Shown piece by piece: positions 191 to 5,319 of a stretch of 64,000 nt of DNA. The DNA comes from Deltaproteobacteria bacterium. GTDB lineage: Bacteria > Desulfobacterota > Desulfobacteria > Desulfobacterales > SpSt-501. Below the pieces are notes generated by a model that was not told the origin of the DNA, searched no databases, and saw nothing but the letters and a program-made list of their open reading frames with translations. The stretch is from NCBI GenBank assembly GCA_016219005.1, contig JACRCN010000045.1, forward strand, positions 1 through 64,000, read 5' to 3'. Each line of letters begins with the position of its first letter. Positions within the stretch are counted from its first letter, which is position 1. A program made the position numbers and the translations under genes.

Positions 191-997
191 ATGAAATTTA
201 TTCTACCTCTCTTGGCGTGTCTTCTGATCGTCAGCCTCCCTGCGGGGGCGGCTTCCGAGAGCGCATCGGAACCGGGTGTGCCGATCCTGCTCTACCACCG
301 CTTCGGCCCCACCGTCGCCGACAGCATGACCGTGACGACGGCGGTCTTCGAGTCCCATCTGAAATACCTGCGCGAGAACGGGTACACGGTCATTGCCCTC
401 CAGGAGCTGATGGCCCTGCTGTCCGGTCCGGGCATCCCTCCAGGCGCCCGGTACGTGGTGCTGGTGGCCGACGACGCCCACCGATCCGTCTACACCGACG
501 CCCTGCCCCTGATCAAGAAATACAAGGTGCCCATGACCCTTTTCGTGTACCCGTCGGCCGTGTCCAACGCCTCCTACGCCATGACCTGGGACCAGTTGCG
601 GGAATTGAAGGCCACCGGCCTCTTCGACTTCCAGTCCCACACCTACTGGCACCCCAATTTCAAGAAAGAGCGGGAAAAGCTGCCGCCGGCAGAGTTTGAG
701 AAACTGGTCCACATGCAGCTGACGAAATCCCGGGAGAAGTTGGAAAAGGAGTTGGGCCAGAAGGTCGACCTGCTGGCCTGGCCCTTCGGCATCTATGACC
801 CCGACCTCATGGACAAGGCCGCGGTGGCGGGCTACGTCGCGGCGTTCACGATTGAGAGGCGCCCGGTCACCCGCCGGGATCACGCCATGGCCCTGCCCCG
901 CTATCTTCTGGCCGACACGGACCGTGGGAAGATCTTCGAAGCCATATTGAACGCACACATCACCAAGAGGGAGAACAGGAATGCGAAAGACAATTAG
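191..997 (+). CDS. Exported polysaccharide deacetylase (NodB-type, CE4)
   Basis: This 268-residue protein begins with a signal peptide (hydrophobic core about residues 3-18, Ala-rich cleavage region near 20). The NodB fold is shown by the LLYHRFG motif near 33-39, a motif-1 equivalent at 92-101 and SHTYWHPNF at 149-157, whose His150 and His154 would bind the metal. A WPFG motif follows near 193. Motif 1 reads VADDAHRSVY where the family normally has TFDDG, so both Asp (94, 95) remain but the Gly is Ala. Such enzymes remove acetyl groups from N-acetylated polysaccharides in the periplasm. The next gene overlaps its 3' end by 17 bases, so the two are co-transcribed. The exact polymer is unknown. 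Confidence 0.85.
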   Translation: MKFILPLLACLLIVSLPAGAASESASEPGVPILLYHRFGPTVADSMTVTTAVFESHLKYLRENGYTVIALQELMALLSGPGIPPGARYVVLVADDAHRSVYTDALPLIKKYKVPMTLFVYPSAVSNASYAMTWDQLRELKATGLFDFQSHTYWHPNFKKEREKLPPAEFEKLVHMQLTKSREKLEKELGQKVDLLAWPFGIYDPDLMDKAAVAGYVAAFTIERRPVTRRDHAMALPRYLLADTDRGKIFEAILNAHITKRENRNAKDN

Positions 998-2291
998 GAA
1001 TTTGTTTTGGGCCGCAGCTCTGGTTTTTATTTTTCCGGGGGCGGGCCTGGCCGATGGAGGACACCTGCTGAACGTGGTGGATCATCACACCGGTCAGGCC
1101 ATCGCGGGTGCCGTCGTCACCCTGGACGGAGAGATGCTGAACCCTGACCCGCAAGGCCTGTTTTCCCTGACGAAGGCGGAAGGGACGGTCAAAGCGAAAG
1201 CTCACGGCTACCACCGTACCGAGCTCGCGCTGCCCGATCCGCTGCCCGCCGGGCCGTTGGAGGTCAAGCTGAGCCTCCTCACGCCCAAGGCGCTGTACCT
1301 GTCATTTTACGGCGTGGGTTCGAAAGCCCTGAGGGGACCGGCCATGAAGCTGATCGAGGAAACCGAACTCAACTCGCTGGTCATCGACGTCAAGGGCGAT
1401 CGGGGCATGATCCCCTACCGCAGTTCCGTGCCGCTGGCCACCGAGGTGGGCGCCCAGAAGATCATCACCGTGCGCGATGCCGAAGGTCTGATGGGCCTGT
1501 TCAAGGAAAAAGGCGTCTACACCATTGCCCGCATCGTGGTGTTCAAGGACAACCTGCTGGCCAGTGCGCGGCCGGACCTGGCGGTGAAAACCCCGGCGGG
1601 GGAGCCGTGGCGGGACCGGGAGGGCCTCGCCTGGGTGGACCCCTTCCGCAAGGAAGTCTGGGACTACAACATCCAGATCGCGGTCGAAGCCGCGAAGATG
1701 GGGTTTGACGAGATCCAGTTCGATTACGTGCGCTTCCCGGATTCCCACTCGCCGCGCTTCTCCCAGCCATGTACCGAGGAGGCCCGGGTGAAGGCCATCA
1801 CGGGCTTCCTCCAGGAAGCCCGTGCCAAGCTTGCACCATACAACGTGTTCACGGCGGCGGACGTATTCGGCTACGTCTGCTGGAATCTGAACGACACCGA
1901 CATCGGGCAGAAGCTCGAACCCATCGCCTCGGCCGTGGACTACCTTTCGCCCATGCTCTACCCGTCCGGATTCCAGTTCGGGATTCCCGGCTTTCGTAAC
2001 CCCGTGCAGAACCCGTATGAGATCGTCTATCTCTCGCTCAAGAAAGCCCAGGAGCGCACGAAAATCTCCCCTCTGCGCTTCCGCCCCTGGCTGCAGGCGT
2101 TCAAGGATTACGCCTTCGACCGGCGGCAGTTCAACGGCAAGGAGCTGCGGGACCAGATCAGCGCCAGCGAGAAGTTCGGCTCCCAGGGCTGGATGCTCTG
2201 GAACCCGGTCAATCAGTACACGGCCGCGGCCGAGTCCCTCAAGAAAGATATCAAAACGGCCAGCCTCGGCGCTGTTGCCTCAAACCCCTGA
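981..2291 (+). CDS. Putative exported glycoside hydrolase (DUF4015 family)
   Basis: This 436-residue protein has a signal peptide (residues 1-24). A small beta-rich segment (about 28-95) resembles a carboxypeptidase-regulatory-like domain. The main domain starts near LYLSFYGVG (about 109) and carries VIDVKGDRGMIPY, FDEIQFDYVRFPD and a C-terminal WMLWNP motif, all typical of the TIM-barrel DUF4015 putative glycosidases. In this family acidic residues in the IQFDYVRFP strand are expected to be catalytic; that is family knowledge, not tested here. The ATG is preceded by AGGGAGAACAGGA and overlaps the deacetylase gene. Together with the next gene it points to extracytoplasmic glycan turnover. Confidence 0.8.
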   Translation: MRKTIRNLFWAAALVFIFPGAGLADGGHLLNVVDHHTGQAIAGAVVTLDGEMLNPDPQGLFSLTKAEGTVKAKAHGYHRTELALPDPLPAGPLEVKLSLLTPKALYLSFYGVGSKALRGPAMKLIEETELNSLVIDVKGDRGMIPYRSSVPLATEVGAQKIITVRDAEGLMGLFKEKGVYTIARIVVFKDNLLASARPDLAVKTPAGEPWRDREGLAWVDPFRKEVWDYNIQIAVEAAKMGFDEIQFDYVRFPDSHSPRFSQPCTEEARVKAITGFLQEARAKLAPYNVFTAADVFGYVCWNLNDTDIGQKLEPIASAVDYLSPMLYPSGFQFGIPGFRNPVQNPYEIVYLSLKKAQERTKISPLRFRPWLQAFKDYAFDRRQFNGKELRDQISASEKFGSQGWMLWNPVNQYTAAAESLKKDIKTASLGAVASNP

Positions 2292-2345
2292 AACCCGTAT
2301 GATGTCTTTGAGCTAAATTGACCGACGGTTCGGGGACCAAGGCAT

Positions 2346-4667
2346 GTGAAGACCAGGAAGCGGCCCTCTATTCATTTCCTGCTGACGGCAGTGGCGGTCG
2401 TCATGGTGTCTGCTTCGGCCGCCGGCGCAGGCCTTCGGCCCGAGCCGCTCGCCGCCATCTCTTTCGCAGTCGAGGAAGCGATCCGCGCGGGCGAAACGCC
2501 CGGTGCGGTCATCGTGATCGGCCACCAGGGAGAAGTCGTTCTGCGCCAGGCCTTCGGCCATCGCAGCCTGGCGCCGCCGCGGCCCATGACGCCGGATGCC
2601 GTCTTTGACGTTGCCTCCCTTACCAAGGTCGTGGCCACCACCCCCGCCGTCCTGCAGCTCATGGAGAAAGGCCGGTTGCAGCTGGATGCACCGGTGGCCC
2701 GGTACTGGCCGGGGTTCAAGGGCCACGGCAAGGAGCGCATCACCGTCCGCCAGCTGCTCACGCATTACTCCGGCCTGAGGCCCGGCCTGCTCCCCAAACC
2801 GGCTTGGTCGGGCTACGATGCCGCTTTGAAAAAAATCGCCGACGACACCGCCGCGCTTTCGCCGGATTGCCGGTTCGTTTACAGCGACCTCAATTTCACC
2901 ATCCTGGGTGAGCTGGTCCGGCGAGTCTCCGGCGAACCTCTGGAGGTTTACTGCCGCCGGCACATCTTCGAGCCCCTGGGAATGAAAGACACGGGTTTCA
3001 AGCCTTCAAAGTCGCTGAATGGCCGCCTGGCGCCTACTATGGAGGGCAGCTCCGGAGTGGTGCACGATCCGGACACCCGGCGCATGGGCGGCATATCCGG
3101 CGCGGCCGGGCTTTTCTCCACGGCCGACGATCTGGCGTGTATCGCCCAGGCCCTCCTGGACCAAGGCCGCCATGCGGACGGACAGATCCTCAGTTCCGCC
3201 GCAATCAAGGACATGACACGGCCCCAATCGCCGGCCGGCAAACTGCCCGCCAGGGGTTTGGGATGGGCCATCCATTCCCCTTCCGGCAACTGGAGTGAAA
3301 TGCTCCCAGCGGGCACCTTCGGCCACAAAGGGTTCACCGGCACGCTGCTCTGGATCGACCCGGAAACTCAGACCTACCTCATCGTCTTGAGCAACCGCGT
3401 CTACCCCGACGGTGTGGCCAGGGAGGAAACCCTGCGGGAAAAATTGTTTTGCCTGGCGGTGCAGGCCACCGGCCGGCCCGCGCCCACATCGCCCGCGGAC
3501 TCACTTTCGCAAGTTCCAGTCGGCATGTCGACAAGCAGGGTCATGACCGGAGTGGATGTCCTGGCCGCCCGAAAGTTCGCTGCCCTTGCGGGCAAACGGG
3601 TGGGGCTGATCACCAATCACACGGGCCTGGATGCCGTCGGGAGGCGGACGATCGATCTTCTGGCAAGGGCGCCCGGAGTGAAGCTGCGGGCGATCTTCAG
3701 CCCCGAACACGGCCTGTCAGGCAAGGCGGATTGGAAGGTGGCTTCAGGCCGGGATGCGTCGACGAACCTGCCGGTCTACAGCCTTTACGGTGAAACCCGG
3801 CGGCCGAAACTCGAGATGTTGAAGGGTCTGGATGTCCTGGTCTTCGACGTCCAGGATGCGGGCGCCCGCTTCTACACCTACATGTCCACGCTGGGCTACG
3901 CCCTGGAGGCGGCCGCCACGAAAGGGATCGAATTCGTCGTGCTGGACCGGCCCAACCCCATCAGTGCCACCCGGGTGGAAGGCCCGGTGATGGATCCGGA
4001 TCTCAGGAGCTTCACCGGCTATTTCCCGCTTCCGGTCCGCCACGGCATGACCATCGGAGAGCTGGCGCTCATGTTCAACGGAGAGACTCGGATGGGGGTC
4101 AGGCTGAAAGTGATCCCGATGCAAGGCTACCGGAGGGACATGTGGTTCGACGAAACCGGTCTTGGCTGGGTGAACCCCTCGCCGAACCTGCGCTCCCTTG
4201 GCCAAGCCATCCTCTACCCCGGGGTGGCGCTCAGCGAAGCGTCCAACGTCAGCGTCGGCAGAGGCACGGACACCCCGTTCGAGCTGCTCGGCGCACCGTG
4301 GATCAGTGCCGACGAACTGGCGCAGCACCTGCGCGACCGTCAAATTCCCGGAGTGGAGTTGGAACCCGCCGCCTTCGTGCCCAATGCTGGCATTTTTGCC
4401 GGGCAGCCATGCAACGGCCTCCAAATCGTCCTCAAAGATCGCGGGAGTTTAGATTCGGTCGGACTCGGGGTTGAGATCCTTTGTGCCCTCCAACGCCTTT
4501 ACCCGGGGGTGTTTCAACTTGATCCGGCGCTGCATCTGGTGGGCTCGCGCACGGTACTCCGAGCGATCAAGGAAGGAAAAGATCCTCAATCCATCGCGGC
4601 CACCTGGCAGACGCCCCTGGATGAATTCCGCCGTCTCCGCGCCACCTACCTGCTCTACAAGGATTGA
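2346..4667 (+). CDS. Serine hydrolase (AmiE/beta-lactamase fold) fused to DUF1343 exo-muramidase (NamZ-like)
   Basis: GTG start, 773 residues, with an N-terminal signal-like hydrophobic stretch (10-28). Domain 1 (about 35-370) is a class-C beta-lactamase-fold hydrolase: SLTK at 91-94 (nucleophile Ser91, Lys94), YSDLN at 179-183 and GHKGFTGT at 326-333. Domain 2 (about 398-773) is DUF1343: TGVDVL, GKRVGLITNHTG (about 417-428), SPEHGL (about 452-457) and LDRPNPI. In Bacillus subtilis, AmiE (a serine amidase of this fold) and NamZ (DUF1343, GH171, exo-N-acetylmuramidase) are neighbouring genes that act in turn on muropeptides. Here both appear in one chain. The joint role in peptidoglycan recycling is inferred. 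A short, diverged copy of its 3' part lies at 5320-5440. Confidence 0.88.
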   Translation: MKTRKRPSIHFLLTAVAVVMVSASAAGAGLRPEPLAAISFAVEEAIRAGETPGAVIVIGHQGEVVLRQAFGHRSLAPPRPMTPDAVFDVASLTKVVATTPAVLQLMEKGRLQLDAPVARYWPGFKGHGKERITVRQLLTHYSGLRPGLLPKPAWSGYDAALKKIADDTAALSPDCRFVYSDLNFTILGELVRRVSGEPLEVYCRRHIFEPLGMKDTGFKPSKSLNGRLAPTMEGSSGVVHDPDTRRMGGISGAAGLFSTADDLACIAQALLDQGRHADGQILSSAAIKDMTRPQSPAGKLPARGLGWAIHSPSGNWSEMLPAGTFGHKGFTGTLLWIDPETQTYLIVLSNRVYPDGVAREETLREKLFCLAVQATGRPAPTSPADSLSQVPVGMSTSRVMTGVDVLAARKFAALAGKRVGLITNHTGLDAVGRRTIDLLARAPGVKLRAIFSPEHGLSGKADWKVASGRDASTNLPVYSLYGETRRPKLEMLKGLDVLVFDVQDAGARFYTYMSTLGYALEAAATKGIEFVVLDRPNPISATRVEGPVMDPDLRSFTGYFPLPVRHGMTIGELALMFNGETRMGVRLKVIPMQGYRRDMWFDETGLGWVNPSPNLRSLGQAILYPGVALSEASNVSVGRGTDTPFELLGAPWISADELAQHLRDRQIPGVELEPAAFVPNAGIFAGQPCNGLQIVLKDRGSLDSVGLGVEILCALQRLYPGVFQLDPALHLVGSRTVLRAIKEGKDPQSIAATWQTPLDEFRRLRATYLLYKD

Positions 4668-4741
4668 ATCGCCATTAGTGGCAGCGCCCGGTCGGCTCCC
4701 GGCCAACCGCCGCCTCGAAGGGCCGGGGCGATACCCAGAAT

Positions 4742-4771
4742 TTGACACCGGCCGCATTGCGTCGTAATAAT
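4742..4771 (+). promoter_or_regulatory. Candidate sigma70-type promoter
   Basis: TTGACA at 4742-4747 and AATAAT at 4766-4771 are 18 bases apart, in the gap before the small exported protein gene at 4870. The -10 box matches 5 of 6 consensus positions. The implied leader is about 90 bases and contains a GC-rich hairpin (GCGGCGG/CCGCCGC, near 4783-4801). Confidence 0.4.
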
Positions 4772-4869
4772 TCCGGTCAAGACGCGGCGGTGACCCGCCG
4801 CTCCGGAGCCATGCCTGCCGGGGCATCGGTTTACCGGAAAGAACTGCGTGCCTGAGGAAAGGAAAAGGT

Positions 4870-5175
4870 ATGAAAAAAGCATTGTTTGTTCTGGTTTGTC
4901 TGCTGGCCGTGTTCGCCTTCGCAAGCGGGGTGATGGCCGCCCAGCAAAACACCACCAAAAGCCAGGTTCTGAAGGCCTCCGGGACCGTGCTCGCATACGA
5001 TCCGGGCATCATGGTCGTCATCAAGACATCCAAGGGCAAGGAGATGCACTTCGACCTGGCCGCGAATGCCAAGGTCGGCAGCAAGGTCGACCGGGGCTCC
5101 AAAGTGACGGTGTCCTACAAGAAACAGGGGCAGAAACTGGTAGCGTCCGCGGTTGCCGTGTCCACCAAGAAATAG
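4870..5175 (+). CDS. Small exported protein of unknown function
   Basis: 101 residues with a textbook signal peptide: MKK, a hydrophobic core, and an Ala-Ser-Gly-Val-Met-Ala cleavage region ending near residue 24. The mature part is a short, Lys- and Val-rich beta-type sequence (VLAYDPGIMVVI, VTVSYKKQGQKLV) that could fold as a small OB- or SH3-like barrel, similar in style to DUF5666-type periplasmic proteins. That similarity is an impression, not an assignment. AGGAAAGG lies just before the ATG. It is probably transcribed alone. Confidence 0.75.
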   Translation: MKKALFVLVCLLAVFAFASGVMAAQQNTTKSQVLKASGTVLAYDPGIMVVIKTSKGKEMHFDLAANAKVGSKVDRGSKVTVSYKKQGQKLVASAVAVSTKK

Positions 5176-5319
5176 CCCGAAAAGCGCCGGCAGAGACCGG
5201 CTGCGGTTACCCACGAAATTGAAAAAGGCATAATCCAGGAGATGGATCATGCTTTTTTTCGTCGCAACACCCGGCGACGCGCGAGATTCAGACGGCCCCC
5301 AACCGGCCGCGATGATGGA

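Follow-up and report, generated by a model that had tools for sequence, protein, structure and literature searches.

A fused S12 hydrolase-NamZ protein and its three-gene cassette in the Desulfobacterales: a candidate system for peptidoglycan salvage

The window analysed here is a stretch of 64,000 nucleotides from the genome of a deltaproteobacterium of the order Desulfobacterales (SpSt-501; GenBank assembly GCA_016219005.1, contig JACRCN010000045.1), and the features of interest are collected in Table 1. Three genes make up the locus, encoding a polysaccharide deacetylase, a DUF4015 protein and a fusion of an S12 serine hydrolase to a NamZ-type domain. Base 1 of the window is also the first base of its contig (C8), and the view upstream of the cassette ends there. 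The first two genes are the glycan enzymes that an earlier note on this DNA had placed upstream of the fusion (191-2291), and both have Pfam matches. The motifs of the deacetylase are conserved in its cassette homologues; the protein itself falls below the cut-offs of both PgaB, its best NCBIfam match (104 against 321.9 bits), and IcaB (88.6 against 248). For the DUF4015 protein, a structural model of low confidence (pLDDT 62) has 4s1a as its closest solved structure, the other Foldseek matches being to GH13/GH36 barrels and generic. GHL10 proteins near two other fusions match the DUF4015 model weakly. The protein was also considered as a homologue of DigH, which was rejected when a pairwise comparison revealed no sequence similarity. 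Downstream of the fusion, at 4870-5175, lies a small exported protein with a weak, below-cut-off match to ExtJ, a protein of the selenite/tellurite reduction operon.

Table 1. Cassette genes in the window and the parts of the fused protein
Feature	Coordinates	Strand	Details
Exported CE4-type polysaccharide deacetylase (PF01522), cassette gene 1	191..997	+	Polysacc_deac_1 2.3e-20; motifs DDAH, SHTxxH, WPFG
DUF4015 putative glycoside hydrolase, cassette gene 2	981..2291	+	PF13200 1.8e-117; overlaps gene 1 by 17 nt
Fused S12 serine hydrolase and NamZ exo-muramidase-type protein	2346..4667	+	773 aa, GTG start, no internal stop
Predicted Sec signal peptide, residues 1-28	2346..2429	+	hydrophobic core; last residues ASAAGA; lipobox Cys absent
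S12 / PF00144 domain, residues 45-362 (S91, K94, Y179, H327)	2478..3431	+	Pfam (Beta-lactamase); 4.9e-80
Interdomain linker, residues about 379-398	3480..3539	+	between Pfam domains; low model confidence 381-397
NamZ_N (PF07075/DUF1343), residues 419-617	3600..4196	+	Pfam; 1.6e-83, 279.6 bits against cut-off 26.9
NamZ_C (PF20732), residues 622-771	4209..4658	+	Pfam; 1.4e-43, 149.7 bits against cut-off 25

The fused protein is predicted to be exported. The earlier note had described an exported fusion in which S12 motifs (Ser91, Lys94, Tyr179 and HKG at 327-329) lead into a complete DUF1343 domain, and this description is borne out: in addition to the predicted Sec signal peptide, hmmscan against Pfam matches PF00144 and PF07075 far above their cut-offs, and the C-terminal half is a full match in both of its NamZ parts. 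In an alignment of 28 fused homologues, Ser91-x-x-Lys94, Tyr179, His327 and Gly329 are invariant; residue 328 varies outside the genus of the window, being lysine within it and mostly threonine or leucine elsewhere. A predicted structure of the whole protein (mean pLDDT 77.7) recovers both a NamZ fold and an S12/PBP fold, each domain being modelled with confidence, with a disordered linker and with pLDDT below 50 for the signal peptide. The pTM of 0.53 makes the mutual placement of the S12 and NamZ domains unreliable.

The C-terminal half is securely a true member of the NamZ / GH171 / DUF1343 family. It is 39% identical to the solved structure 4k05, on which the model superposes with a Z score of 46.3 and an rmsd of 2.1 over 373 residues, and the family motifs PEHG, DxQDxG, LDRP and GRGT are kept and are invariant in the 28 homologues. 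Structures 4k05 and 4jja, both from Bacteroides fragilis, match this half over their full length in fold and sequence and, unlike the fused protein, have no S12 domain. Exo-beta-N-acetylmuramidase activity would be expected from this kinship. The fusions of the Burkholderiales, which belong to a different phylum, depart from it at NamZ positions conserved elsewhere: R565 is lost in all four (L234, L235, L236, L237), H566 in L236, and E646 is replaced by G, A or T among them, so that these proteins may have an altered muramidase activity or none. A different partnership was seen in a sample drawn from the phylum of a Clostridia genome, where NamZ is followed by Cu_amine_oxidN1 in one protein (L205:6580-8196 and L206:6014-7927).

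The earlier note implied that the fused version was new, which it is not. The S12-NamZ fusion is already known, since a 2008 survey tabulates the architecture DDPept-DUF1343 for YP_439122.1 (PMC2605481, Table 3) and RefSeq names WP_059583925.1 of Burkholderia savannae an exo-beta-N-acetylmuramidase NamZ domain-containing protein; a literature search on the fusion or the cassette, with the founding NamZ paper (JBC 2021) outside its coverage, returned nothing past the 2008 table. The fusion is also widespread, being present in at least seven phyla and found in Nitrospirota, Acidobacteriota, Planctomycetota, Verrucomicrobiota and one Bacillota genome (L192), while in Burkholderiales it is carried by plasmids. 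Acidobacteriota, the phylum of locus L016, were sampled evenly: NamZ occurs in 191 of 247 genomes, with about forty open frames of at least 750 aa among the matches listed; both domains are present in 18 of the 19 such frames that were fetched. Within the Desulfobacterales, fused frames are restricted to the genus of the window (four of its seven genomes, counting a truncated one), and no frame in the other matching genomes of the order exceeds about 550 aa. Around NamZ, three genomes (G003, G006 and G298) have open frames of 714-773 aa, which were rejected as fusions because the S12 domain is absent; the length of the open frame alone therefore overcounts them. Matches labelled 'Bacteriophage sp.' from fecal samples were seen in a phage collection, and bacterial DNA is suspected.

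The three-gene cassette is more interesting than the fusion itself and, unlike the fusion, no earlier description of it was found. The same genes in the same order occur in the congener L098. Conservation of the cassette extends over the genus, two Nitrospirota loci out of three (the remaining one having DUF4015 and the fusion only) and plasmids of Burkholderia and Cupriavidus, of which one is typed conjugative and one mobilizable; the replicon concerned in Burkholderia stagnalis measures 3.2 Mb. Across Desulfobacterales, Nitrospirota and Burkholderiales, the fusion proteins of cassettes form a single clade of 12 rows (support 98), in which two rows labelled 'other' represent one congener whose short contig ends inside the fusion gene. 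Trees of the S12 and the NamZ domains both place the protein of the window in one fused clade with the same nearest relatives, and the second, standalone NamZ of this genome (on contig C78) groups in the NamZ tree with those of its own order. The simplest reading of these trees and gene orders is that the cassette was assembled once and then moved horizontally, in either direction. On plasmid pNK82 of Caballeronia sp. NK8 (L238, 5009-7170), a deacetylase match spread over two frames is followed by DUF4015, and no S12-NamZ fusion was found in the fetched flank; we take this to be a decayed or incomplete cassette.

Fusions of other clades keep different company. Genes for MurQ, an SSF symporter and a NagZ-type GH3 enzyme precede the fusion in one direction in two Acidobacteriota loci (L210 and L211), SSF-GH3-fusion is found in two more (L208 and L213), an SSF gene lies directly upstream of the fusion in L018, and MurQ adjoins it in L192 and L225. 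Locus L016 has a GH3 gene and then one open frame of 1384 aa (1036-5187) that joins an SSF sodium:solute symporter to S12 and NamZ, uniting transporter and periplasmic enzymes in a single chain. Unfused arrangements also exist: three Bacillota loci read murQ-murR-murP-S12-GH3-NamZ, and in a member of the Poribacteria (L039) an S12-NamZ pair is followed by AnmK. These orders place the fusion of Acidobacteriota in the slot that amiE, nagZ and namZ fill in Bacillota. It is mainly for this reason, the position of the fusion among salvage genes, that a muropeptide-salvage role is accepted, and the MurQ/SSF/GH3 adjacency concerned is found at fusions of other clades, not at the cassette of the window. 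A plasmid of the haloarchaeon Halorussus limi, which has no peptidoglycan of its own, carries genes for AnmK, an Amidase_2 protein of the peptidoglycan recognition family, S12, a putative glycoside hydrolase, DUF1343/NamZ, NagZ and two GH18 proteins (L233, NZ_CP096661.1 7851-29410), a cluster by which it apparently exploits the walls of bacteria (compare PMC12352652).

Among known systems, the muropeptide-rescue operon of Bacillus subtilis, murQ-murR-murP-amiE-nagZ-namZ(ybbC), is the obvious point of reference (PMC5061867). There, too, an S12 hydrolase and NamZ belong to one pathway acting on extracellular muropeptides, and both are predicted to be exported. The earlier note was correct that amiE and namZ are separate genes in Bacillus and mistaken in making them neighbours, as nagZ lies between them in B. 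subtilis and in L189, L191 and L194. Whereas MurQ and MurP are part of that operon, the window has S12 and NamZ fused, NagZ elsewhere, no MurQ, and a deacetylase and a DUF4015 protein as partners. The same fused protein, at 45-51% identity, is encoded in L210 and L211, but its partners there are catabolic. Its domain order is shared by YP_439122.1 of Burkholderia thailandensis and by the B. savannae protein, which matches 93% of the query at 47% identity and whose gene belongs to the same deacetylase-DUF4015-fusion cassette. The SddA/DigH pair of Escherichia coli has the kind of chemistry proposed below for cassette genes 1 and 2, but belongs to different Pfam families and is not linked to NamZ. 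Bacteroidota GH3-S12 fusions (NP_811352.1 and YP_444518.1; PMC2605481) likewise combine S12 with a peptidoglycan-type exo-glycosidase, but this is a glucosaminidase and the domain order is the opposite.

The remainder of the genome bears on the fate of any released sugar. MurQ and AnmK are absent from the genome, which is 98.5% complete, and MurQ-based recycling in this organism is rejected on that ground; NagZ is present elsewhere, over its cut-off. One open frame on contig C78 (G000:C78 about 63.7-65.4 kb; L232:751-2463) joins NTP_transferase and APH domains, a MurU-like and an AmgK-like part whose best named models both score below cut-off (MurU 123 against 250, AmgK 76 against 550), and is separated from the standalone NamZ gene by about 6 kb. 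An AmgK-MurU route is known from Pseudomonas (PMC5371407). Given the absence of MurQ and AnmK and the presence of NagZ and of this frame, released MurNAc is more likely to be reused for synthesis by such a route than to be broken down through MurQ. The earlier note's 'compact muropeptide-recycling locus' thus fares well in comparative context (MurQ, SSF, GH3, AnmK) and less well at home, where MurQ and AnmK are missing and the partners are a CE4 deacetylase and DUF4015.

Taken together, these observations lead us to propose, with a probability of roughly 60%, that the fused protein is a periplasmic two-domain enzyme that dismantles fragments from peptidoglycan turnover, their sugar probably being reused via the MurU-AmgK-like protein; export, all catalytic activities, the order of substrates, the coupling of the two sites and the recycling role are what we infer. 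The S12 domain, through Ser91, Lys94 and Tyr179, would most likely cut the stem peptide from MurNAc as an AmiE-like amidase, after which the GH171 domain would take the peptide-free MurNAc off the non-reducing end of the glycan. The fusion may serve to pass the denuded sugar from the S12 site to the NamZ site and so keep the two steps together; since the relative placement of the domains in the model is unreliable, this transfer is a proposal only. Released MurNAc would probably be reused through the MurU-AmgK-like protein and not MurQ. E. coli has a deacetylase, SddA, and a hydrolase, DigH, that act on denuded glycans (PMC12440217, PMC12288456). By analogy, the deacetylase of the cassette would take acetyl groups off GlcNAc, and an internal cut in the glycan would probably be made by the DUF4015 protein. 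The latter step is an analogy because DUF4015 and DigH share no sequence similarity. A study of B. anthracis describes YkyA/PdcF cofactor domains, whose founding member serves a peptidoglycan deacetylase, fused to polysaccharide deacetylases or to DUF4015 (PMC12700454).

One exposed part of this scheme is the bond cut by the S12 half. All of the expected motifs (SxxK, YxN/YSD, HxG/KTG) and the PBP/beta-lactamase fold are present in the N-terminal half. Several S12 enzymes that differ in activity match it at Z scores of about 39, and the fold is shared by esterases, DD-carboxypeptidases and DL-peptidases. In a tree of 74 S12 domains, the AmiE reference consisted of three Bacillota genes picked by murQ-murR-murP-S12-GH3-NamZ synteny. 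These form a clade of their own with E. coli YfeW (support 100), the gene for which itself stands in the order murQ-murP-yfeW. The fused domains fall outside that clade, on a separate branch within a larger group (support 96) that holds both. The note's AmiE-like amidase therefore stands as to S12 family, motifs and the broad clan of Bacillus AmiE and E. coli PBP4B, not as to membership of the AmiE/PBP4B clade. A DD-carboxypeptidase or endopeptidase, a DL-peptidase of PBP4B/AmpH type, or an esterase, for example one removing O-acetyl groups or lactyl esters, could trim or de-block muropeptides for the fused NamZ, which would keep the recycling theme and change only the bond cut. We consider such a non-amidase unlikely but a serious contender: in addition to the position in the tree, the best NCBIfam match is PBP4B (YfeW), followed by AmpH, though at 143.3 against a curated cut-off of 385 the domain does not reach PBP4B equivalog status, and most of the S12 relatives of solved structure are esterases or carboxypeptidases, with one DL-peptidase. 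Against it, S12 occupies the exact amiE slot beside NagZ and NamZ in several lineages. The NamZ of B. subtilis reportedly requires peptide-free MurNAc, a result ascribed to Mueller et al. in 2021, and such a requirement favours an amidase as partner. The S12 half is tied to NamZ by fusion. A link to GH3/MurQ exists for fusions of Acidobacteriota and of one Bacillota locus and is missing from the cassette of the window; the half appears to work in the setting of AmiE and is a candidate for an amidase activity of AmiE type. The genome also encodes a separate S12 hydrolase directly upstream of mreB (G000:C101:1263-2261; L104:1185-2327), which at 166.7 bits is nearer to PBP4B than the fused domain is.

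Two further readings concern the cassette as a whole. It may remove denuded glycan strands when the septum is split or the envelope remodelled, in the manner of SddA/DigH, recycling being a by-product, which we regard as improbable. The operon pairing of a deacetylase with a glycoside hydrolase does parallel that system, there is no importer, kinase or MurQ in the cassette, and both DUF4015 and polysaccharide deacetylase occur fused to the YkyA/PdcF domain (PMC12700454); but the closest fusions outside the cassette are linked to catabolic salvage genes, an exo-acting NamZ suits the salvage of fragments, and carriage on plasmids speaks against a core role in division. That the cassette attacks foreign bacterial peptidoglycan or a different GlcNAc polymer, one resembling PNAG, as food and has no part in handling the wall of its own cell is distinctly improbable. 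It would suit the presence of modules on plasmids, the nearness of the deacetylase to PgaB/IcaB models and the S12-hydrolase-NamZ-NagZ-AnmK clusters of haloarchaea devoid of peptidoglycan, but those two model matches are far below cut-off, and NamZ is specific for MurNAc, which leaves the third gene unexplained by a role on PNAG only. The possibility of a misassembled or decaying gene, for which one might cite a single MAG-like assembly (106 contigs, 4.7% contamination), is ruled out by the independent assemblies of congeners, which, like the window, encode an uninterrupted fusion (L006 and L011/L098, 73-79% identity; in G005 the 5' part is cut off by the end of a 3.9-kb contig), and is at odds with the intactness of the fusion in six other phyla and the conservation of all motifs.

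Salvage of turnover fragments thus remains our preferred reading of the fused protein, and a wider claim is offered tentatively, at rather less than even odds: that the cassette is a self-contained, horizontally transferred system for salvaging peptidoglycan glycans, undescribed before, and that DUF4015 may be a glycoside hydrolase of peptidoglycan that has gone unrecognised, with peptide-free or deacetylated strands as its substrate. The fusion is independent evidence for a common substrate of S12 and NamZ enzymes. The conserved cassette gives DUF4015, a widespread family without an assigned function, a concrete peptidoglycan role to test, and cell-wall salvage, it appears, can travel as a small module, plasmids included.
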